Shown here piece by piece: positions 29,818 to 45,026 of a stretch of 64,000 bases of DNA; the stretch's first letter is position 1; each line of letters opens with the position of its first letter. Position numbers and translations under genes: made by a program. The stretch is from Polyangiaceae bacterium (GTDB taxonomy: Bacteria; Myxococcota_A; Polyangia; Polyangiales; Polyangiaceae): positions 806,001 through 870,000 of the forward strand of contig JAHBVX010000003.1 of NCBI GenBank assembly GCA_019637295.1. Reading direction: 5' to 3'. The notes under the pieces were generated by a model. The model made no database searches. It was given only the letters and a program-made list of their open reading frames with translations, and was not told the origin of the DNA.

Positions 29818-31740
29818 GTGACCGCTCTCGCCCGACGGGTGGTGATCGCCACGGCAGGTCACGTGGATCACGGCAAGACCGCGCTGGTGCGCGCGCTGAC
29901 GGGGACGGACACGGATCGACTCCCGGACGAGAAGCGACGCGGCATCAGCATCGAGCTCGGCTTCGCGACGTTCGCCGACGAACCGATGAGCTTCATCGAC
30001 GTGCCGGGGCACAAGCGATTGGTCCACGCCATGATCGCCGGCGTCGGTGGCGTGGATGGTGTGCTGCTCGTGGTGGCCGCCGACGACGGCGTGATGCCGC
30101 AGACTCGCGAGCACCTGCAGGTGTGCCGACTGCTGGGGATCACGCGCTTCGTGGTGGCGCTGTCCAAGTGTGACCTGGTCGACGACGAGATGCTCGGGAT
30201 GGCCCGCGCCGACGTGGAGGCGGCGCTGGCGGAAGCAGGGCTCACGGCGCTGACGTTGGTTCCCACGTCCGTCGAGACCGGCGCGGGGCTCGCCGAGCTG
30301 AAGGCGGCGTTGCTCGGGCTCGGGCGAGACACGCCGGCGCGAGCCGAGAGCGCCTGCGCGTGGTTGCCCATCGACCGGGTCTTCTCGGTGAAGGGCGCGG
30401 GTACCGTCGTCACCGGCACGTTGACCCGCGGCTCGCTGAGGGAAGGACAGGCCGTCGCCGTCGTGAGTGAGGGCAAGGTCTACGACACGACGTGCCGGCA
30501 GCTCCACGTCCACGGCAGCAGGGTCGACGCCGCCAGCGCGCCCTGCCGCGTCGCCGTCAACCTGGCGCGGGTCGAGCAGAGCGAGGTGGCTCGCGGCGAC
30601 GCCTTGGCGACGCACGCGCTCGCCTCCACCCGGCTCGACGTCGTGCTCCGGGGGACGGAGGCGGACTTCGCGCGCATCGAGGACGGCTCGAGCGCGCTGG
30701 TCCACGTGGGCACGGCACGACGCACGGTTCGGGTCACTCGCCTCGGCGCTCGCTCGCTGCACCTGGCGCTCGACGCGGCCCTGCCGGCGATGGGGAAGAT
30801 CGGCTTCGTGCTGCGCGGGTTTCGGAGCACCTCCGCCCGAGGCGCCGTGCTCGGCGGCGGCATCGTCGTCGACGCCCAGGCACCCAAGCTGCCGCCGCGG
30901 CGAGCGGCACGCGCCTGGGAGCTACGCGCCTCGACGCTCGAGGCCCTGGCGGACAACCAAGTCACCGCGGCCCTCTCGGGTCTGCTCGAGCTCGCGCGTC
31001 CCAGGCCCCTCGACGCCGAGAGCGTCGAGCGACGCCTGGGGCTCGAACCCGGCGCCCTCTCCGAGGCGTTGGCGGGCAAGAAGCGCAAAGGGCCAGCCAC
31101 AACCATCGCGCTGCCGTCCGGACGGGAGTTCACGACCGCCGAGAACGTGGACCAGCTCGCGGACGACCTGCTCCGGCGGGTGCAGACCCACCACGAGGCA
31201 CATCCTCACGAGCCCGGGCTCTCGCTCGAGACCGCGCGGACCGCCCTGGCGCGACGCTCGGGGCGGGCACTGGCTGACGTGGTGCTCTCGCGGCTAGCGA
31301 CCGCCGGTCGCATCGTGCTCGAGGAAGGCGTCGTGTGTACGGCTGCCTTCGCCGAGAGCAGCGGGCCGGTCGTGCGCCAACTCGCCGACGCGGTGGTCGC
31401 TCGGCTCGAAACGCTGGGCCTGGAGGGGACGGGCGAGAACGCGCTGGCCAGCGAGCTCGCACAGCCCGTGGAGCGCGTTCGTGCCGCGCTCGCCCGACTC
31501 TCCCGCGAACAGAGAGCCCGGCGGCTGGGCACCCTGTGGTTCGCCGAGAGCGCCATCGACGCCCTGCGGCGGAGGCTAGAGACCCACTTCGCGAGCGCCG
31601 AGTCCATCAGCGTGCCGGATCTCAAGGAGCTGGCTGGCGTCTCGCGCAAGCAGGCCATCCCCTTGCTCGAGCAGCTCGATCGCGAGGGCACCACCCAGCG
31701 CAAGGGCGACTTGCGCGTGCGCGGCCCCGGCCGGCGTTGA
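29818..31740 (+). CDS. selB: Selenocysteine-specific elongation factor
   Basis: 640 residues, full length for SelB. ATAGHVDHGKTALVRALTGT is the GTPase P-loop (residues 12-31), DEKRRGISIELGFA the switch region, DVPGHKRLVH the G3 motif and SKCDLVD the G4 motif. Translation domains follow, then C-terminal winged helices that read SECIS RNA (ISVPDLKELAGVSRKQAIPL). It delivers Sec-tRNA to UGA codons. The GTG at 29818 is the only plausible start; the ribosome site is weak. selA lies 8 kb away. Confidence 0.95.
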   Translation: MTALARRVVIATAGHVDHGKTALVRALTGTDTDRLPDEKRRGISIELGFATFADEPMSFIDVPGHKRLVHAMIAGVGGVDGVLLVVAADDGVMPQTREHLQVCRLLGITRFVVALSKCDLVDDEMLGMARADVEAALAEAGLTALTLVPTSVETGAGLAELKAALLGLGRDTPARAESACAWLPIDRVFSVKGAGTVVTGTLTRGSLREGQAVAVVSEGKVYDTTCRQLHVHGSRVDAASAPCRVAVNLARVEQSEVARGDALATHALASTRLDVVLRGTEADFARIEDGSSALVHVGTARRTVRVTRLGARSLHLALDAALPAMGKIGFVLRGFRSTSARGAVLGGGIVVDAQAPKLPPRRAARAWELRASTLEALADNQVTAALSGLLELARPRPLDAESVERRLGLEPGALSEALAGKKRKGPATTIALPSGREFTTAENVDQLADDLLRRVQTHHEAHPHEPGLSLETARTALARRSGRALADVVLSRLATAGRIVLEEGVVCTAAFAESSGPVVRQLADAVVARLETLGLEGTGENALASELAQPVERVRAALARLSREQRARRLGTLWFAESAIDALRRRLETHFASAESISVPDLKELAGVSRKQAIPLLEQLDREGTTQRKGDLRVRGPGRR

Positions 31741-35797: not shown

Positions 35798-37876
35798 TCA
35801 GCAGCCGCTGCTCGAGCCCTGACAGGTCCCGCCGTTGCAGTTCGGCGGCGAGCTGCACTTGCAGCCGCACTTGCCGCAGTTGTCAGCGTCGGTGTTCTTG
35901 TTCACGCACTGGCCGCCGCAGTAGATCTGCGGGTCGGTGCAGGTGCAGGCGCTGGCCGCGCAGTGGGCCGTGCCGCCACACACGTTGCCACACCCGCCGC
36001 AGTTGTTCTTGTCCGTCGTCGTATCGAAGCAACCCGTGGGCGCTCCCTGCGGGCACGCAGTACCGCTCGAGCACGAGAGCCCACACGTGCTGCCCGAGCA
36101 GGTCGGCGTGCCCGGAGGCGTGCCGGCGGGGCAAGCGTTGCCGCAGCTGCCGCAGTGCGACGCATTGGTGGCGGTATTGACGCAGGCACCGCCGCACTCG
36201 GTGGTGCCGCCGGTGCACACACAATTGCCGCCCACGCAGCTGCGGTTCTGCCCGGTACACGGCTGGTCGCAGCCCCCGCAGTGCAGGTTGGACGTGCCCG
36301 TGTTCCAGCAGCCGGTGGGGCTGCCCGGCGAGCACAGCGTGCCGCTCGAACAGCTGAAGCTGCAGTTGCCACCGCTGCACACCCGCTGGCCCGTGGAGCC
36401 CGAGGCCGGACCGGGGCACGGGTTGCCGCAGCTCCCGCAGTTGTCGACGTTGTTGCTCAGGTTCAGGCACAGGTTGCCGCACTTGGTGAAGCCTGTATTG
36501 CAGTTGAACCCGCACTGGCCGCCGGAGCAGGTCGGCGTGCCGTTCTGGGGCGTCGGGCAGCCGTTGCTGCAGGCCCCACAGTGCGCGACCGTGTTCTGCA
36601 CGTTCACGCAGTCCCCGCCGCAGTTGGTGAAGCCACCGTTGCAGGTGAACCCACACGCCCCTCCCGAACACGAGGCGGTCGCGTTCGGCTTGGTCGTAGT
36701 GCACACGTTGCCGCAGCTGCCGCAGTTGCTGACGTCGCTCGTCAGGTTGAAGCAGGTGCTCGTGCACAAGGTCTGGGGCGGGCTACAGCTCGACGCGCAG
36801 GCGCCGTTGCTGCACACGGACGTTCCGCCCCGGGGGTCTTGGCAAACGTTGTTGCAGGTGCCGCAGTGGTTCTTGCTGTTCTGCAGGTTGCGCTCGCAGC
36901 CGTTGGCGCGGTTGCCATCACAGTCGCCCCAGCCCGTCTGACAGCTGTCGTAGTCGCAAGCACCGCCCACGCACTTGGCCCCGTTGACGTTCTGCAGCTG
37001 GCAGGGGACGTTGCACGCGCCGCAGTGGGCCAGGGTGGTGTGCAGGTTGACTTCGCAGCCGTTGTCCGCGTTGTTGTCGCAGTTCGCGAAGGGCGGGGTG
37101 CACACGATCACGCAGTTACCGTTGTTGCAGCCGGGCACCCCGTTGGTGCTGCTGCATTTCTTGCCACACTGCCCGCAGTTGTCGGCGTCCGTGGCGGAAT
37201 TGACCTCGCAGCCGGTCGCGGGCTCCTGATCACAGTCGCGATAGGCGCCGGCACACGACGTGATCACGCACTTCGACGCCGCGCAGGCGGAGTTGGCGTT
37301 GAGCAGATTGCACTGATTGGTGCAGAAGCCGCAGTTGTTCGGATCGCTCGTGGTGTCCACCTCGCAGGTGCTCTTGTCCCCGTTACAGTTCGCGGTCCCG
37401 CTGGGACAGGTGTCGACCACGCACGTCCCCTCCTCGCAGATCCTGCCGCTGTTCGTGCAGTTGGTCTGGCACGTCCCGCACTTGTCGGGCGCCCACTGCA
37501 GGTTCGATTCGCACCCGTTCTTCGGATCGTCATCGCAGTCCGCGAAGCCCGGGCTGCACTGGTCGATGGCGCACTTGCCATCCGCCCCGCACTTCGCCGT
37601 GGCGTTGGTCAGCGTGCAGGGCTCGCAGGAGCTGGTCGCGCACCCGGTCTCGGGCGCGCTCGACGCCAGGCACTCGGGCTCGCCCTGGGCATTCGGGCAC
37701 ACCTTGGAGCCGGGGAAGCACTGCGTCCCACCCACGCCCCCGGAGCCCCCGCTCCCGGACACGCCACCGCCGCCATCTGGATCGACGCTGGCCGTGCCCT
37801 CCGTGCTCAAGCCACACGCAGCGAATGGAACGAGCCCAGCGAGACCGAGCAGGACGGCTCTGATGAAGCGCACCAC
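35798..37876 (-). CDS. Giant Cys-rich repeat lipoprotein-like protein A
   Basis: 692 residues. A signal ends near VPFAACGLST (lipobox AAC), then a Gly-rich linker, then 630 residues of short Cys-rich repeats, about one Cys in seven. The recurring pattern is CxxGxxDCDxxxxNGCExN followed by NCGxCGxxC, resembling Stig1-like Cys modules in myxobacterial surface proteins. It is probably a disulfide-knotted surface or matrix protein. It is paired with a tandem paralogue immediately upstream on the same strand. TAGACT on the minus strand (37883-37888) ends six bases before the GTG start. Confidence 0.85.
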   Translation of the reverse strand: MVRFIRAVLLGLAGLVPFAACGLSTEGTASVDPDGGGGVSGSGGSGGVGGTQCFPGSKVCPNAQGEPECLASSAPETGCATSSCEPCTLTNATAKCGADGKCAIDQCSPGFADCDDDPKNGCESNLQWAPDKCGTCQTNCTNSGRICEEGTCVVDTCPSGTANCNGDKSTCEVDTTSDPNNCGFCTNQCNLLNANSACAASKCVITSCAGAYRDCDQEPATGCEVNSATDADNCGQCGKKCSSTNGVPGCNNGNCVIVCTPPFANCDNNADNGCEVNLHTTLAHCGACNVPCQLQNVNGAKCVGGACDYDSCQTGWGDCDGNRANGCERNLQNSKNHCGTCNNVCQDPRGGTSVCSNGACASSCSPPQTLCTSTCFNLTSDVSNCGSCGNVCTTTKPNATASCSGGACGFTCNGGFTNCGGDCVNVQNTVAHCGACSNGCPTPQNGTPTCSGGQCGFNCNTGFTKCGNLCLNLSNNVDNCGSCGNPCPGPASGSTGQRVCSGGNCSFSCSSGTLCSPGSPTGCWNTGTSNLHCGGCDQPCTGQNRSCVGGNCVCTGGTTECGGACVNTATNASHCGSCGNACPAGTPPGTPTCSGSTCGLSCSSGTACPQGAPTGCFDTTTDKNNCGGCGNVCGGTAHCAASACTCTDPQIYCGGQCVNKNTDADNCGKCGCKCSSPPNCNGGTCQGSSSGC

Positions 37877-37914: not shown

Positions 37915-39894
37915 TTAGCCGCCGGAACCGCCAGAGCCGCCGCCGGTGCCCCCGGAACCGCCGCCGGTGCCCCCGGTGCCGCCCTGGCACGACCCCCCGA
38001 CGCAGTTCTGCCCGCTCGGACAGCCGTTGCCGCAGCTCCCACAGCTGGAGTTGCTGGTCTGCAGGTTCCGGCAGCCAATGTTCGGGCAGTAGGTGTCGCT
38101 GCTGTTGGGGCAGGTACAGTTGCCGCTCGTGCACTGGCTCGAGGTGCCGGCACAGGCAGCGCCGCATGCACCGCAGTGGGCCTTCGTGTTCTGTAGATTC
38201 ACGCAGTTGCCGCTGCACGACGTAAACCCGGGGTTGCACAGGCACGAGCCGCTCTGACAGGAGCGATTCGCTCCCGTACAAGCGCTGCCGCAGCTACCGC
38301 AGTGTGTGTTCGAGGTGTTCGTGTTGAAGCACCCGGTGGGGTTCGCGGTGGGGCAGGCGGTGGTGCCGCCGCCGCAGGTCAAGCCGCAGGTGCCGCCCCC
38401 GCAGGTGGGGGTCCCCGGCGGCGAGCCGGCGGGACAGGCGTTGCTGCAGCTGCCGCAGTGACCCACGTCGTTCGAGAGATTGCGGCACTCGTTGCCACAC
38501 TTGCTGAAGTTGTTGTTGCAGTTGAAGCCGCAGGTGGCCCCCGCGCAGGTCGCCGTGCCGTTCGACGGCGCGGTGCAGGCGTTTCCACAGCTGCCGCAGT
38601 GCGCCACCGTGTTCTGGAGGCTGACGCAGTCCCCTCCGCAGTTCGTGAAACCGCTGTTGCAGGTGAAGCCGCAGCTCCCATTGGAGCACGCGGGGGTCGC
38701 GTTCGGTTTGGTCGTGGTGCAGCCGTTGCCGCAGCTGCCGCAGTTGCTGACGTCGCTCGTCAGGTTGTAGCAAGCGTTGGTGCACAGGGTCTGCGGCGCG
38801 CCGCAGCTCGAGGCACACGCTCCGTTGCTGCACACCGCAGTGCCGCCCTGCGGGTCCTGGCACGCGTTGTTGCACGTGCCGCAGTGGCCCTTGCTGTTCG
38901 TCAGGTTGCGCTCGCAGCCGTTCGCGCGGTTGTTGTCGCAGTCACCCCAGCCGTTCTGGCAGCTGTCGTAGTCGCAGCTGCCGCCCACGCACTTGGGCCC
39001 GTTCACGTTCTGGAGCTGACACGGGCTGTTGCAGCCCCCGCAGTGGGCCAGGTTGGTGTGGCTGTTGATCTCGCAGCCGTTGTCGGCGTTGTTGTCGCAG
39101 TTGCGCCAGGGGGGGGTGCAGACGATCACGCAGTTGCCCAGTAAGCAACCCGCGATCCCGTTGGTGCTGCTGCACACCTTGCCGCACTGGCCGCAGTTGC
39201 TCGGGTCCGTGGCGGAGTTGGTCTCACAGCCGTTGGACGTGGTCGAGTCGCAGTCGCGATAGCTGCCCTGGCACGACGTGATGACACACTGGGACGACGC
39301 GCAGGCCGAGTTGGCGTTCGTGAGATCGCACTTGTTCGTGCAGAACGCGCAGTTGTTCGGGTCACTCGTGGTGTCGACCTCGCAGCTGCTCTTGTCTCCG
39401 TCGCAGTTGGCCGTACCCGTCGGGCAGGTGTCCACGACGCAGGCGCCCTCTTCGCAGATCTTGCCCTCGGTGGTGCAGTTCGTCTGACAGGTGCCGCACT
39501 TGTCGGGCGCCCACTGCAGGTTCGACTCGCAGCCGTTGGTCGAATCACCGTCGCAGTCGGCGAAGCCGGGGCTGCACTGGTCGATGGCGCACTTGCCGTC
39601 GCCGCCGCACTTGGATGTGGCGTTGGACAGCGTACATGGCTCGCAGGACGACGTGGCGCAGCCCGTGTCGGGTGAGTTGGAGGCGATGCACTTGGGCGTG
39701 CCCTGCGAGTCCGGGCACACCTTGGAGCCCGGAAAGCACTCGGTGCCACCGACGCCACCGCCGGCCGCCTGCCCCGCCTGACCACCGCCGCCGTCCGGAT
39801 CGACGCTCGCGGTACCGCTGGTCTCGAGCCCGCAGGCGGCAAAGCCCAACACCCCCGCTAGCCCATAGCCGAAGAGACGAACGAAGTGAGCCAC
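37915..39894 (-). CDS. Giant Cys-rich repeat lipoprotein-like protein B
   Basis: 659 residues, a close paralogue of protein A: both share CTLxNATxKCGxDGKCAIDQ and CESNLQWAPDKCGTCQTNC and many later repeats in the same order. The signal contains LGFAACGLET (lipobox). Unlike A, it ends in a Gly/Thr/Ser-rich tail. The GTG at 39894 is chosen because it aligns with the paralogue start; TACCCT on the minus strand (39901-39906) ends six bases before it. Confidence 0.85.
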   Translation of the reverse strand: MAHFVRLFGYGLAGVLGFAACGLETSGTASVDPDGGGGQAGQAAGGGVGGTECFPGSKVCPDSQGTPKCIASNSPDTGCATSSCEPCTLSNATSKCGGDGKCAIDQCSPGFADCDGDSTNGCESNLQWAPDKCGTCQTNCTTEGKICEEGACVVDTCPTGTANCDGDKSSCEVDTTSDPNNCAFCTNKCDLTNANSACASSQCVITSCQGSYRDCDSTTSNGCETNSATDPSNCGQCGKVCSSTNGIAGCLLGNCVIVCTPPWRNCDNNADNGCEINSHTNLAHCGGCNSPCQLQNVNGPKCVGGSCDYDSCQNGWGDCDNNRANGCERNLTNSKGHCGTCNNACQDPQGGTAVCSNGACASSCGAPQTLCTNACYNLTSDVSNCGSCGNGCTTTKPNATPACSNGSCGFTCNSGFTNCGGDCVSLQNTVAHCGSCGNACTAPSNGTATCAGATCGFNCNNNFSKCGNECRNLSNDVGHCGSCSNACPAGSPPGTPTCGGGTCGLTCGGGTTACPTANPTGCFNTNTSNTHCGSCGSACTGANRSCQSGSCLCNPGFTSCSGNCVNLQNTKAHCGACGAACAGTSSQCTSGNCTCPNSSDTYCPNIGCRNLQTSNSSCGSCGNGCPSGQNCVGGSCQGGTGGTGGGSGGTGGGSGGSGG

Positions 39895-39993
39895 CCCGAC
39901 AGGGTACACCCGAGCGGACCTGCGAGCGAGGGGCGCGGGTCACACCGAAGTCGAGGTCCAGGGTAGGTGTAATGCGCACACGCCGGCCTTGCG

Positions 39994-41391
39994 TCACGTC
40001 GCCGTCACGAGCGCACCGCGCAGGGCCTGCACCAGCAGGGCGTCCTCGTCCTCGAGCACCGTGCGCAGGTCGAGCACCACCTGGTCCGCTTCGACGCGCC
40101 CGACGACCGCCGGGGCCCCGCGACGCAAGCGCTTCGCGAGCGCATTCGGCGCCGAGGTGACGATCGTCAGCGCCAGCGACGCCACCGTCGCGTCGGCCAG
40201 CGTGCCGCCCCCGATCGCCGCGACCGACGGCGTGATCGCGACCGCCGGCGCCGCAGCACCGAGCTGAGCCAGACAGCGCTCCGCGCGAGCTAGCAGCTCG
40301 GCGGGCGTCGCGGCCAACATGCGATGCAGCGGAATGGCCGAGAGCTCACCTCGCTCGTACACGTCGAGGAGGGGTTCGAGCGCCGCGAGGGTGACCTTGT
40401 CCACGCGCAGCGCGCGGGCGAGCGGATCCTCGCGCAGGCGCTGCACCAGCACCCCCTGCCCCACCAGCGCCCCGGCCTGGGGTCCACCGAACAGTTTGTC
40501 GAGGCTGAAACAGACCACGTCCGCTCCGCCGGTCAAACAGGCCTGCACGCTCGGCTCGCGCGCCTGATCCCGCGCGTCCACCGAGTCCGGCAGCGGCACC
40601 ACGAGCCCTCCGCCGAGATCCTTGAGCAGCCAGACGCCCCGCGCGCGGGCGAGCGCGGCGAGGTCAGCGAGGCTGGGACGCTCGGTGAAGCCCGTCATCT
40701 TGAAGTTGCTAGGGTGCACGCGCAGCACGCCGGCCGTGCGCTCGTCCATCGCCCGCGCGTAGTCATCCGCGCGCGTGCGGTTGGTGGTTCCCACCTCCAC
40801 CAGCCGAGCGCCCGAACGCGCCAGCACGTCCGGGATGCGGAAGCCGCCGCCGATCTCGAGCAGCTCACCGCGAGACACGAGCACATCCCGCCCGGCGCAC
40901 AGCCCGCTGAGCGCCAGCAGCACCGCGGCGGCGTTGTTGTTGACGAGTAGCGCGTCCTCGGCGCCGACCAGCGCCGCCAGCCGAGCTTCGACGCCGACGC
41001 CACGCCGAGTCCTCACGCCCAGCTCCACGTCGAGCTCCAGGCTACTGTAGCGACCCGCGACCTCGGCGATGCGCAGCAGCGACTCGCGCGGCAACGGAGC
41101 CCGACCGAGGTTGGTGTGCAGCAGCACTCCGGTCGCGTTGATCACGACTTGGAGGGGACTCTGCCCGCGCTCGAGCGCCCGCACACGCACCTCTTCGACG
41201 ATGAGGCCGGGGTCCGGCGGCGGAGCGCCGCTCTCGAGGGAACGCTCCCGCGCTTCGGCCAGGACCTCGCGCGTCACGAGGGTGAGAGCGCGGACTCCGA
41301 GACGCGCGACCACGGGGGCGAGCTCGGGCGCGGCGAGCACCCGGTCCACCTTGGGCAGGCGCGACAGTGCGGGGTGGAGCTTCGAGGTCAT
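39994..41391 (-). CDS. selA: L-seryl-tRNA(Sec) selenium transferase
   Basis: 465 residues, full length. SelA converts Ser-tRNA(Sec) to Sec-tRNA(Sec) using selenophosphate and PLP. The PLP lysine is in FSLDKLFGGPQAG (Lys299), with ATGVLLHTNLGRAPL and VEVGTTNRTRADDY as family signatures. The ATG at 41391 begins the conserved N-terminus (LPKVDRVL). It is alone on its strand here, 8 kb from selB, and no tRNA-Sec or selD is seen nearby. Confidence 0.96.
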   Translation of the reverse strand: MTSKLHPALSRLPKVDRVLAAPELAPVVARLGVRALTLVTREVLAEARERSLESGAPPPDPGLIVEEVRVRALERGQSPLQVVINATGVLLHTNLGRAPLPRESLLRIAEVAGRYSSLELDVELGVRTRRGVGVEARLAALVGAEDALLVNNNAAAVLLALSGLCAGRDVLVSRGELLEIGGGFRIPDVLARSGARLVEVGTTNRTRADDYARAMDERTAGVLRVHPSNFKMTGFTERPSLADLAALARARGVWLLKDLGGGLVVPLPDSVDARDQAREPSVQACLTGGADVVCFSLDKLFGGPQAGALVGQGVLVQRLREDPLARALRVDKVTLAALEPLLDVYERGELSAIPLHRMLAATPAELLARAERCLAQLGAAAPAVAITPSVAAIGGGTLADATVASLALTIVTSAPNALAKRLRRGAPAVVGRVEADQVVLDLRTVLEDEDALLVQALRGALVTAT

Positions 41392-41488: not shown

Positions 41489-42286
41489 GTGTGCCTCACA
41501 CCTAGCCACCGCGAAGTCCCCCGAGCCACGCCCGCCGTCGGTCCGACGCGGGCACGTCGCGTCGTCGCCTGCGCGAGCGTAGCGGCGGTGTGCGCGGCAG
41601 CGCTGGGCTGCCGAGAGTCCACTGCGGCGACGCCGGTCCGAGACGACGCCGCGCCGCCCCAAACCCAGAGCGCGGAAGCCCCGCCGCCAAGCGAGTCCGC
41701 TGCGCCTGCCCCGAGCGCGAGCACGGCCGCTGCCGAGGACGCGACCCTGCGCCTGGCCTCCGGTGAGCCGGCGGCCGCCGCGACGCGGGTGCTGCACGTC
41801 GGGGACTCCATGGTCCCGCTCGTGGGCAACTACCTGCGGCCGATCTTTCAGAGCAGCGGGCGCAAGTACTTCATCGACAGCGTGACCTCGGCCTCGACGC
41901 TGGACTTCGGCGAGAAGGGCCTCTTGCAGCAGGCCATGTACCGGTATGACCCGGATCTCGTGCTGATTTCGCTCGGTTCGAACGAGCTGTTCGATCCGAA
42001 GCCCGAGCGACGCGCCCCAGCCATCCGTCAGATCGTCGCCCACACCCGCGGGCGACCCTGCTTGTGGATCGGCCCCCCGGCCTGGAAGCGAGATTTGGGA
42101 TTCATCCAGGTACTCAGGAATAATTTGGGCCACTGCCGTTATTTCGATTCTGCTCGCCTCGACTTGCCCCGCATGGCAGACGGTAGGCACCCCGACTGGA
42201 CCGGAGGCTACCGCTGGGCGAGCGCCGTGTGGACGCTCCTCGGCGGGACCGAGCCAGTCCCCACCGGCAACCGGAGACCCGACTGA
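41489..42286 (+). CDS. SGNH-type hydrolase lipoprotein
   Basis: 265 residues. The signal ends CAAALGC (lipobox) and a Pro/Ala/Ser linker follows. The core has LHVGDSMVP (GDS block with nucleophile Ser), LISLGSNELF (SGN-like Gly/Asn block) and DGRHPDW (DxxH catalytic pair), the order of SGNH hydrolases. It probably removes acetyl or other esters from a glycan or lipid at the surface. The stop overlaps the next start (TGATG), coupling it to two phosphatase-superfamily proteins. GTG start. Confidence 0.8.
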   Translation: MCLTPSHREVPRATPAVGPTRARRVVACASVAAVCAAALGCRESTAATPVRDDAAPPQTQSAEAPPPSESAAPAPSASTAAAEDATLRLASGEPAAAATRVLHVGDSMVPLVGNYLRPIFQSSGRKYFIDSVTSASTLDFGEKGLLQQAMYRYDPDLVLISLGSNELFDPKPERRAPAIRQIVAHTRGRPCLWIGPPAWKRDLGFIQVLRNNLGHCRYFDSARLDLPRMADGRHPDWTGGYRWASAVWTLLGGTEPVPTGNRRPD

Positions 42287-43644
42287 TGAAGCGACCACCG
42301 CTCCCCCTCGCCCTGGCCTGCAGCGTCAGCCTGGCGTTCGGGTGCAAGGAGAAGACGCCGACCGCCGAGGCCACGCACCCGACCGGCTCCGCTCCGGCCG
42401 CGAGCAGCGCGCCCGCCGAGCCCGAGCCGCCCAAGCCTCCGGAGATCGCACGGCCCTTCAACGTCATCCTGCTGATGATCGACAGCCTGCGCGCGGACAT
42501 GCCCTGGGCGGGCTACGAACGAGACATCCTGCCGCACCTCACGGCCTACGCCAAGGAGAGCTGCACGGTGTACGAGAATGGCTACTCGTTCTCGAGCTAC
42601 ACGGCCAAGAGCGTCGTGCCCGCGCTGGTCGGCGAGTACCCGAGCGCGATGAAGCGCGACGGCTATTTCTTCACCCGCTACCCCGACGCGGACAACCTGT
42701 TCTTGAGCGAGCGCGCCCAGAAGGAAGGCCACCGTACCCTGGCGGGGCACGCGCACGGCTACTTCCTGCCAGCGCTCGGGAACAACCAGGGCTTCGACGA
42801 CTACCGGCTGATCCCCGGCGGCGTGGATCTCCGCGCGGTGACCTCCATCACCAGTGAGCCGCTGACCAAGCTCGCCATCGACATGCTCAGCGACGAGAAG
42901 AACGTGAAGCTGCCCGAGGGCAAGCGCTTCTTCGCCTACTACCACTACATGGATCCACACCACACCTACGAGAAGCACAAGGGGCACCCGGACTTCGGCA
43001 ACAAGGCGCGGGACATCTACGACAACGAGGTCCACTACACGGACAAGTGGGTCAACGAACTGCTCACCTTTGCCCGCAAGCAAGCGTGGTGGAAGGACAC
43101 GGCCGTCGTCATCACCGCGGACCACGGCGAGGGCTTCGGCGAGCGTGGTCAGTTCCGCCACGCGTACGAGCTGTGGGAGGCGGTCGTCAAGGTGCCCATG
43201 GTGTTCTGCGTGCCTGGCGCCGCGCCGCAGCACGTGCGCGACGTGCGGCGCGGACACATCGACCTGGCGCCAACGCTGGCGGACCTGATGGCGCTGCCGC
43301 CGGAGCCGCCCTTCCGAGGCGAGAGCCTGGTGCCCGAGATCTTCGGCCTGAAGAAGCCGGAGCCCAAGCGCATCATCGTGGACCTGCCGCGCGCGGATCT
43401 GATGGACCGAAGGCGCGCGGTCATCGCCGACGACTGGAAGATCGTCGCCTTCGGAGACGACCGCAGCTTCATGCTCTTCAACCTGAAGGACGACCCCTGG
43501 GAGAAGACGGACCTGGCCAAAGACCAGCCCGAGAAGCTCGAGGAGATGAAGAAGATCTACCTGGAGGAGTCCGCGAAGATCCCCAACGTGGAGGTCGTCG
43601 GCGGTCCACCGCTCAAGGGCGCGCCACCGGGAAGGCGCTGGTGA
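42286..43644 (+). CDS. Alkaline-phosphatase-superfamily lipoprotein 1
   Basis: 452 residues. Signal ends VSLAFGCKEK. The domain starts VILLMIDSLRADMPW (metal Asp), has SSYTAKSVVPAL where sulfatases have Cys or Ser, YHYMDPHHTYE, ITADHGEGFGE (metal Asp/His) and HIDLAPTLADL. A Thr in the nucleophile region matches phosphoethanolamine or glycerol-phosphate transferases (EptA/LtaS type) more than formylglycine sulfatases. It may transfer or remove a phospho-group on an envelope polymer. It overlaps both neighbours. Confidence 0.82.
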   Translation: MKRPPLPLALACSVSLAFGCKEKTPTAEATHPTGSAPAASSAPAEPEPPKPPEIARPFNVILLMIDSLRADMPWAGYERDILPHLTAYAKESCTVYENGYSFSSYTAKSVVPALVGEYPSAMKRDGYFFTRYPDADNLFLSERAQKEGHRTLAGHAHGYFLPALGNNQGFDDYRLIPGGVDLRAVTSITSEPLTKLAIDMLSDEKNVKLPEGKRFFAYYHYMDPHHTYEKHKGHPDFGNKARDIYDNEVHYTDKWVNELLTFARKQAWWKDTAVVITADHGEGFGERGQFRHAYELWEAVVKVPMVFCVPGAAPQHVRDVRRGHIDLAPTLADLMALPPEPPFRGESLVPEIFGLKKPEPKRIIVDLPRADLMDRRRAVIADDWKIVAFGDDRSFMLFNLKDDPWEKTDLAKDQPEKLEEMKKIYLEESAKIPNVEVVGGPPLKGAPPGRRW

Positions 43645-45026
43645 AGGGCGCCGCCGCGCTGCTGGCCGGCGCGCTCTGCCTCATCGCCTCGGGCTGCCGA
43701 GCGCGCGCCAACAGCCCGGAACAAGCGGAGGCGAAAGCTGCCGCGAGCGCGAGCGCCGCCCTCGCGGTCACGGCGGACGCACACGCTCGCGACGCCGCGG
43801 CCGAAGACGCCGCCCCGGACGCCGAGCCCGCGCCTCGAGGCCCGCTCAACGTGCTGCTGATCCTGATCGACAGCCTGCGCTACGACATGCCCTGGAACGG
43901 GTACTCGCGGCCGATCGCGCCCTTCCTGACGGAGTACGAGAAGCGGGTCGTGAGCTACACTCGCGCCTACACCATCTCGAGCACCACCGCGCGCAGCGTG
44001 GCGCCCATGCTGGCCGGCCGTTACCCGAGCGAGATGCGCCGCGGCGGCTATTTCTTCACCCAGTGGCACCCGGACAACGAGCTGTTGCCCGAGCGACTCG
44101 CGGAGGAGGGGCACGCTCGCTTCGGTGTCTTCGCCCACACCTACTTTCACGCGGGCACCGGCGTGGTACAGGGCCTCGATCCAGCCAAGATGTTGTCGGG
44201 GACGGTGCTCAACAATCTGTCCCCCAAGCACATCACGAGCGAGCGCATCGCCCTGGCGGCACGAAAGCTGATGTCCAAGCCGAAGATCGGTGACCAGAGC
44301 GAGGGTCGCCGGTTCTTTGGCTACCTGCACTTCATGGATCCACACGCGCCGTACCTCGCGCACGAGGGTCGTCCTTCCTGGGGCAACCGCCCACGAGATC
44401 TGTACGACCAGGAGGTCCACTTCACGGACGAGCACGTGGGTAAGCTGATCACCTGGATCAAGCAGCAGCCCTTCGGGGAGGACACGGCCATCATCATCAC
44501 GGCGGATCACGGCGAGAGCTTTGGCGAGCATGGCCACCTCAAGCACGGCTATGAACTGTGGGAGGAGCTGGTGCGCGTGCCCCTGTTCATCGACGTACCT
44601 GGCGCGAAGCCCCGACGCATCGACACTCCGCGAAGTCACATCGATCTGCGCCGCACCATTCTGGAGTTGATGAACGTGAGCGAGACCGCGGACACTCGAG
44701 GCAAGAGCCTGGTGCCCGAGCTGTTCGGCGCGGAGCCGGAGCCACGGGTCGTCGTGTGCGATCTGCCGCGAGACAACCTGCAGGACCGGCGCCGCGCGGT
44801 GATCGACGGCCGCTACAAGATGATCGGCATCGGGGACGACCGGCGGCTCTTGTACTTCGACGTGGTCGCCGATCCCGGCGAGACCAAGCGCCTGAACACG
44901 GAGGACCCGGAGGGGTTCGAGCGAATGCGCCGGGTGTACGAAGCCGTGGACAAAGACATCCCCGTGCGCGACGTGAGCGGGGACGACCCGCCGCTCTTCA
45001 ACGCGCCAGCAGGCCGGCGCTGGTGA
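43641..45026 (+). CDS. Alkaline-phosphatase-superfamily lipoprotein 2
   Basis: 461 residues, paralogue of the preceding gene with the same block order: LLILIDSLRYDMPWNGY, TISSTTARSVAPML (Thr at the nucleophile position), LHFMDPHAPYLAHE, ITADHGESFGEHGHL and HIDLRRTILELM. The signal ends LIASGCRAR (lipobox). Both proteins share the C-terminal ending GRRW. The GTG start overlaps the previous stop (GTGA). Confidence 0.82.
   Translation: MKGAAALLAGALCLIASGCRARANSPEQAEAKAAASASAALAVTADAHARDAAAEDAAPDAEPAPRGPLNVLLILIDSLRYDMPWNGYSRPIAPFLTEYEKRVVSYTRAYTISSTTARSVAPMLAGRYPSEMRRGGYFFTQWHPDNELLPERLAEEGHARFGVFAHTYFHAGTGVVQGLDPAKMLSGTVLNNLSPKHITSERIALAARKLMSKPKIGDQSEGRRFFGYLHFMDPHAPYLAHEGRPSWGNRPRDLYDQEVHFTDEHVGKLITWIKQQPFGEDTAIIITADHGESFGEHGHLKHGYELWEELVRVPLFIDVPGAKPRRIDTPRSHIDLRRTILELMNVSETADTRGKSLVPELFGAEPEPRVVVCDLPRDNLQDRRRAVIDGRYKMIGIGDDRRLLYFDVVADPGETKRLNTEDPEGFERMRRVYEAVDKDIPVRDVSGDDPPLFNAPAGRRW

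Follow-up and report, generated by a model that had tools for sequence, protein, structure and literature searches.

The stretch analyzed here (the window) comprises 64,000 nucleotides of a Polyangiaceae bacterium (assembly GCA_019637295.1, contig JAHBVX010000003.1, positions 806,001 to 870,000) and carries three overlapping genes for lipoproteins: an SGNH/GDSL hydrolase (P0001), and two paralogs (P0002 and P0003) of the Pfam Sulfatase family (PF00884) that have a threonine at the position of the sulfatase nucleophile. We propose, with a probability of roughly 0.5, that the three genes form a coupled operon of lipid-anchored envelope enzymes, in which the paired phospho-threonine enzymes and the SGNH esterase remodel a shared or linked substrate. 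The triplet is not a chance pattern, as judged by its Pfam Sulfatase E-values (2e-32 for P0002 and 9.8e-37 for P0003) and by the synteny of the triplet with that of another genome in the genus (G076). The features needed for the argument are:

41489-42286, plus strand: P0001, SGNH/GDSL hydrolase lipoprotein of 265 amino acids (open reading frame, lipobox, Pfam, predicted fold, catalytic residues)
41807-41809, plus strand: codon of the putative catalytic Ser107 of P0001, GDS motif
42284-42288, plus strand: stop/start overlap of the SGNH gene and P0002, 1 base, TGATG, read in the DNA
42286-43644, plus strand: P0002, PF00884 Thr-type lipoprotein of 452 amino acids, P2 type, GRRW end
42601-42603, plus strand: codon of Thr106 of P0002, nucleophile position by alignment to the formylglycine Cys and by invariance
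43633-43641 and 45015-45023 of the window, plus strand: C-termini of P0002 and P0003, at the GRRW end
43641-43644, plus strand: overlap of P0002 and P0003, 4 bases, GTGA, read in the DNA
43641-45026, plus strand: P0003, PF00884 Thr-type lipoprotein of 461 amino acids, P3 type, GRRW end
43986-43988, plus strand: codon of Thr116 of P0003, nucleophile position, at the start of model helix 52-61

In the proposed mechanism, the three genes would be translationally coupled and their products anchored by lipid in the envelope. P0002 and P0003 would act as paralogous, metal-dependent phospho-enzymes with a D-D-H metal site beside Thr106 or Thr116, and this threonine would attack a phosphodiester to give a phospho-threonine intermediate, resolved either by water (a hydrolase, which we favor) or by an alcohol (a transferase). 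The SGNH protein, as a serine esterase, would take off or move acyl groups, either on the molecule that the pair attacks or on one linked to it, so that an acylated, phosphate-bearing lipid or glycan of the envelope or of prey would be trimmed or remodeled. Hydrolysis of phosphodiesters is favored on account of the hydrolase scaffold and the lack of a donor-binding membrane domain.

The threonine is the residue on which this proposal turns. The earlier note, made from the sequence alone, had seen Thr in the nucleophile region (YTAKS and TTARS), and the alignments place it there: the Thr of YTAKS is Thr106 of P0002, the second Thr of TTARS is Thr116 of P0003, and the position, which is that of the formylglycine Cys/Ser, is occupied by Thr in all 51 family members and all 49 rows of the alignment. 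With phmmer, Thr106 and Thr116 align to Cys54 of choline sulfatase in weak local pieces (6-10 bits) and, at 25.7 and 20.2 bits, to the CGPSR cysteine of 4upk, a phosphonate monoester hydrolase; there is no gap around the Thr, and a conserved Gly at +10 stays in register. In a joint alignment, the same column holds C52 of E. coli YidJ, C111 of L118 (a separate CxPSR sulfatase that the same genome keeps) and S136 of AslA, as well as T208 of OpgB, T302 of LapC and T282 of EptA. The remaining sulfatase signature is also gone. The Arg of (C/S)xPxR, at +4, is replaced by V, L, I, A or F in 49 of 49 rows; in the column of the GKWH Lys, where AslA and L118 have their Lys but YidJ has slipped out of register, 34 rows have H, 10 Q, 3 F and 2 N; and the second metal acid has become Ser (45 rows) or Ala (4 rows), a position at which YidJ itself has Thr. 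According to an extract of the SulfAtlas paper, sulfatase sequences have Cys in 3202 cases and Ser in 857, with the Arg in 99%, and a Thr would yield a ketone rather than formylglycine (PMC5066984). Because the Cys/Ser, Arg and Lys of the signature are all missing, P0002 and P0003 are not formylglycine sulfatases, as the earlier note had maintained, and that identity was ruled out.

Besides this threonine, Asp77, His235, Asp289, His290 and His302 of P0003 are invariant (49/49 rows) and align to E244, H385, D455, H456 and H468 of EptA. In MCR-1, an extract of the structural report describes a phospho-Thr285 at the N terminus of a helix and a zinc bound by Glu246, Asp465 and His466 (PMC5031297). 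A model of P0003 was predicted by AlphaFold2 from the 49 rows, with a mean predicted local distance difference test score (pLDDT) of 92.6 and a predicted template modeling score of 0.94; in it, Thr116 is the first residue of a helix. In the structure prediction, suggested earlier as the check on the Thr, the helix start fits an EptA/LtaS-type nucleophile, and the putative metal residues are invariant, but in the alignment EptA T280 is two residues off.

The predicted fold itself is nearest to hydrolases. All 50 Foldseek matches listed are sulfatases or sulfamidase, and the top VIA match is 6hr5, an S1_25 module (Z 39.7, root mean square deviation 2.5, 350 residues aligned), with the phosphonate monoester hydrolases 4uph and 2vqr at Z 33.0 and 32.9 and a Vibrio protein of the alkaline-phosphatase superfamily at Z 33.6. 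EptA, LtaS and MCR are absent among the matches listed by Foldseek and VIA, which does not exclude a relation. P0002 and P0003, which are 47% identical to each other, also match SGSH_C. Among the NCBIfam matches listed (25 families for each), none reaches its curated cut-off, and they stay far below the cut-offs shown; P0003, for instance, scores 90.7 bits against the choline-sulfatase model, whose cut-off is 433. Across the 49 family rows, sulfatase models are the ones matched most often. On the model, these proteins have a sulfatase scaffold with a catalytic residue of the phospho-enzyme type. They resemble the S1 sulfatases (choline sulfatase, 6fny/6g5z; 6hr5) in the whole predicted fold including the SGSH_C subdomain, in the metal Asp and in the D-H/N pair, whereas Thr stands for Cys/Ser, the +4 Arg and the GKWH Lys are absent, and the second metal acid is Ser or Ala. 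The S1_0 phosphonate monoester hydrolases and phosphodiesterases share the fold, and 4upk gives the best alignment of the nucleophile region, yet these enzymes use formylglycine according to the same extract (PMC5066984). The EptA/MCR/OpgB/LtaS phosphotransferases share the class of nucleophile, and the E/D, D and H metal residues and two His align with EptA; they differ in having an integral membrane domain where P0002 and P0003 have a lipoprotein anchor, in the fold, which is here nearer to sulfatases, and in the register of the Thr, which is two residues off. The earlier assignment to EptA/LtaS-like chemistry is therefore supported only in part: the metal and His residues align with EptA, yet most of them are shared with sulfatases, which leaves His302 to point to EptA, and the fold, the missing membrane domain and the register of the Thr speak against it.

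Lipoboxes, read by eye, are present in all three proteins: AALG|C in P0001 (Cys41), LAFG|C in P0002 (Cys20) and IASG|C in P0003 (Cys19). The gene for P0001 has a single sensible start (GTG at 41489) and a long n-region, and its ortholog in G076 has a lipobox as well (ACAG|C). Ahead of the catalytic domain, P0002 and P0003 have just a lipoprotein signal and a short linker, without an N-terminal transmembrane domain. A crude lipobox pattern found a string in 42 of the 51 PF00884 members, none in 8 and left one empty, although it picked the wrong Cys in P0002 and overlooked real ones (e.g., in T2 of L031). In Myxococcus xanthus, an extract of the sorting study reports Lys at +2 in 8 of 12 inner-membrane lipoproteins and Ala at +7 in matrix lipoproteins, with an N22K change insufficient to retarget FibA (PMC3222651). 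These rules give mixed answers when applied to the three proteins (CKEK, CRESTAA and CRARANS). At the other end, P0002 and P0003 share the GRRW tail that the earlier note had pointed out. A tail of the form [GS][RQ][RG][WYH] occurs in 19 of 49 rows, namely all 15 rows of the P2/P3 clade and 4 of family f6; it may dock on the body of the enzyme, because in the model the last seven residues are better scored (pLDDT 83) than the ten before them (69).

P0002 and P0003 are members of a family of lipoproteins found in this bacterial order. At E <= 1e-20, 139 of 144 genomes of the order have relatives of P0003, though this loose threshold lets in other PF00884 proteins as well, and the family profile at E <= 1e-60 finds 105 of 235 genomes of the phylum, membrane-anchored relatives included. 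Within its own genome there are 20 PF00884 matches, six of which are among the 51 family members; the others (e.g., L120), with the exception of L100, are off the tree. In 15 further loci of relatives, a crude hydropathy measure gave 4-9 hydrophobic N-terminal segments in 14 and one in L113, and the nucleophile column is Thr in 14 and Ser in L115. On a tree of 55 rows, including six of these relatives as outgroup rows, L100 and L108 are nearest to the lipoproteins. Genes around the membrane-anchored relatives were grouped into clusters and inspected by eye; the L100/L108 relative, which is of the Thr type, has the same set of three genes upstream in two genera.

On the same tree, the P2 and P3 types form one clade of 15 rows (support 100/100), divided into 9 and 6. 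A second tandem pair, T1/T2, was examined in 7 genomes of 4 genera (L031, L042, L044-L048); T2 forms a group of 7 rows (100/98), and T1 a group of 8 (96/94) that includes the single gene L049. Since T1 and T2 form groups apart from the P2/P3 clade, the two tandem arrangements are separate events, coupled tandem pairs having arisen at least twice. The earlier description of three lipoprotein genes overlapping by one to four bases was accurate for the window (1 and 4 bases, three lipoboxes), and the arrangement recurs: at 14 of 14 junctions examined (SGNH to PF00884, 5; P2 to P3, 2; T1 to T2, 7), which are not independent because the genomes are related, an in-frame start shares 1 or 4 bases with the stop of the gene before it. 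As background, such an overlap is possible at 78 of 289 other same-strand neighbors, or 78 of 251 if these are at most 300 bases apart. Some of the junction starts are GTG or TTG, and alternative starts lie up to 60 bases downstream at the G038, G150 and G123 junctions, at T2 of G000 and after the SGNH gene of G076. The T1/T2 pair adjoins varying genes (e.g., for an L,D-transpeptidase, a T2SSE ATPase and ABC_transp_aux/DUF4340 proteins). Ten neighbors of tandem pairs or single genes comprised an L,D-transpeptidase, a T2SSE ATPase, a GGDEF/PAS protein, a DUF4340 and an ABC_transp_aux protein, an alpha/beta hydrolase and four without a family; some of the ten recur in several loci, and they show no common pathway.

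The Pfam matches of P0001 (GDSL and DUF459) are weak and below cut-off (best E 9.9e-05). Despite this, fold and catalytic blocks (Ser, Asn, Asp-x-x-His) together mark it as a predicted SGNH hydrolase: S107, N165, D231 and H234 are invariant in 30 of 30 rows, its own included, and the model (mean pLDDT 92.7) is nearest to TesA and PatB and also matches Cj0610c. It has the SGNH fold and catalytic residues of these esterases, and differs from them in being only 15-20% identical, in falling below the Pfam cut-offs and in being a lipoprotein coupled to PF00884 enzymes. The esterase that the earlier note had placed in the triplet is therefore probable on the model, and its role would follow from fold and residues. 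Of the 108 genomes of the family, 95 have SGNH homologs; a profile search finds them in 61 of the 144 of the order. The SGNH gene has a PF00884 member next to it in five of 30 loci (G000, G076, G038, G150 and G160, of which the G150 and G160 loci are cut by contig ends). These five, from three genera, are among the 8 close orthologs, the window's own included; the three unlinked close orthologs are all from genus g9. Because the neighbor in G038, G150 and G160 is P3-like, SGNH-P3 may be the wider-spread core, with P2 in between in this genus. The neighborhood search proposed by the earlier note thus recovered the triplet in a second genome of the genus, but the SGNH link is narrow.

PatB is an SGNH enzyme partnered with a membrane O-acyltransferase (MBOAT). 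Such a partnership was considered for the SGNH protein and rejected: no MBOAT was found among six neighbors scanned around three SGNH homologs (L132, L134 and L139), which are a uracil-DNA glycosylase, an FGE-domain protein, a protein kinase, two M16 peptidases and an M50 peptidase with tetratricopeptide repeats. An FGE-domain (PF03781) gene adjoins an SGNH homolog at G000 (contig C21:16056-17800) and at L134, an adjacency that may be due to chance because the window's own genome has 46 PF03781 matches.

Several results weigh against a joint operon of phospho-threonine enzymes. In the predicted model, the closest fold is that of formylglycine sulfatases. The alignment to E. coli EptA puts the Thr on T282, two residues beyond T280, the EptA nucleophile. 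The three sulfatases compared (YidJ, L118 and AslA) also hold D77, H235 and D289, and two of the three hold H290, so that the five aligned residues do not decide the chemistry. The +2 residue of the P2 lipoprotein varies between orthologs (CK here, CD in G076), and thus does not fix the membrane. Lastly, no PF00884 member was found beside the SGNH gene in 25 of 30 loci (flanks of at most 1.5 kb, some cut by contig ends), nor in 16 wider neighborhoods of SGNH homologs, three of them from g9, in 3 of which the gene caller missed the SGNH gene itself.

The closest competitor is a transferase reading, in which the pair would carry phosphoethanolamine, phosphoglycerol or a similar phospho-group over from a phospholipid to lipid A, a glycan or another acceptor of the envelope, as EptA, OpgB and LtaS do, with lipid anchors replacing the membrane domain. 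Transfer must be taken seriously because EptA, MCR-1 and OpgB, the Thr enzymes that share this fold core and have a known function, are to our knowledge transferases, and because the relatives are membrane-anchored, with 4-9 hydrophobic segments and Thr each in 14 of the 15 loci sampled. His302, moreover, aligns to EptA H468 in a column that is mostly Lys in sulfatases (Lys in YidJ and L118, Thr in AslA), which makes it the one residue besides the Thr that points to EptA; LpxC is present, and lipid A is a possible acceptor. Our confidence is lowered because most of the EptA-aligned residues are shared with sulfatases, and with no donor-binding membrane domain, a fold nearest to hydrolases and no acceptor pathway seen nearby, we regard transfer as possible but on the unlikely side. 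Loss of lipopolysaccharide as a source of new substrates was dropped, as LpxC is present. It is very improbable that P0002 and P0003 are true sulfatases working with an unmodified Thr: their closest solved folds are S1 sulfatases and they have the SGSH_C subdomain, but neither Cys/Ser nor the (C/S)xPxR Arg occurs in any of the 49 rows, and the genome keeps L118 for a CxPSR sulfatase.

A special case of the operon proposal would be predatory or scavenging, with the SGNH enzyme deacylating and the pair acting at the cell surface to cleave the glycerophosphodiester of prey membranes. TesA, to which the SGNH fold is nearest, is a lysophospholipase, and paralogs are many (as many as 12 matches in one genome at E <= 1e-20, other PF00884 proteins counted too). 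On the other hand, surface location and substrate are assumptions, and each of the two families is also found without the other next to it; we consider this version tentative and rather unlikely.

The surroundings of the triplet do not bear out the dedicated envelope modification system suggested earlier: no pathway gene, for glycan or lipid, was seen among the flanking genes examined, and few genera show the link to the SGNH partner. Upstream, selA is divergent from the triplet (39994-41391, minus strand; Pfam SelA, E 4.7e-114), and about 8 kb from it lies selB (29839-31740, plus strand; Pfam SelB-wing match); since both are present, use of selenocysteine by the organism is probable. Downstream follow a short reverse gene, a response-regulator/PAS/GAF/HisKA gene and a putative histidine kinase gene, the last assigned by eye. 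Two neighboring Cys-rich repeat lipoproteins, paralogous by eye, are encoded at 35798-37876 and 37915-39909 of the window (minus strand), and their relatives are also found near the triplet in G076 and near the SGNH-PF00884 dyad in G038.

P0002 and P0003 thus represent a branch of the PF00884 fold that is of the Thr type, carries a lipid anchor and has formed coupled pairs more than once; a narrow literature search returned no title on the triplet or its family. As a speculation that we consider quite unlikely, the order may have moved Thr-type enzymes on a sulfatase scaffold, kin of membrane-embedded ones, onto lipid anchors, the at least two coupled, non-identical pairs being obligate heterodimers or a two-step relay, and one lineage may have added an acyl-esterase to complete a lipid/glycan remodeling unit and hence a new envelope modification. 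An extract of the SulfAtlas paper gives Thr at the catalytic position in 30 of 59 seed sequences of the PF00884 profile (PMC5066984), and despite this frequency such proteins are labeled 'Sulfatase' through PF00884. With its invariant active site and coupled pairs, the lipid-anchored Thr family offers a clean test case for the function of such enzymes, and for the interconversion of sulfatase and phosphotransferase chemistry on one scaffold.

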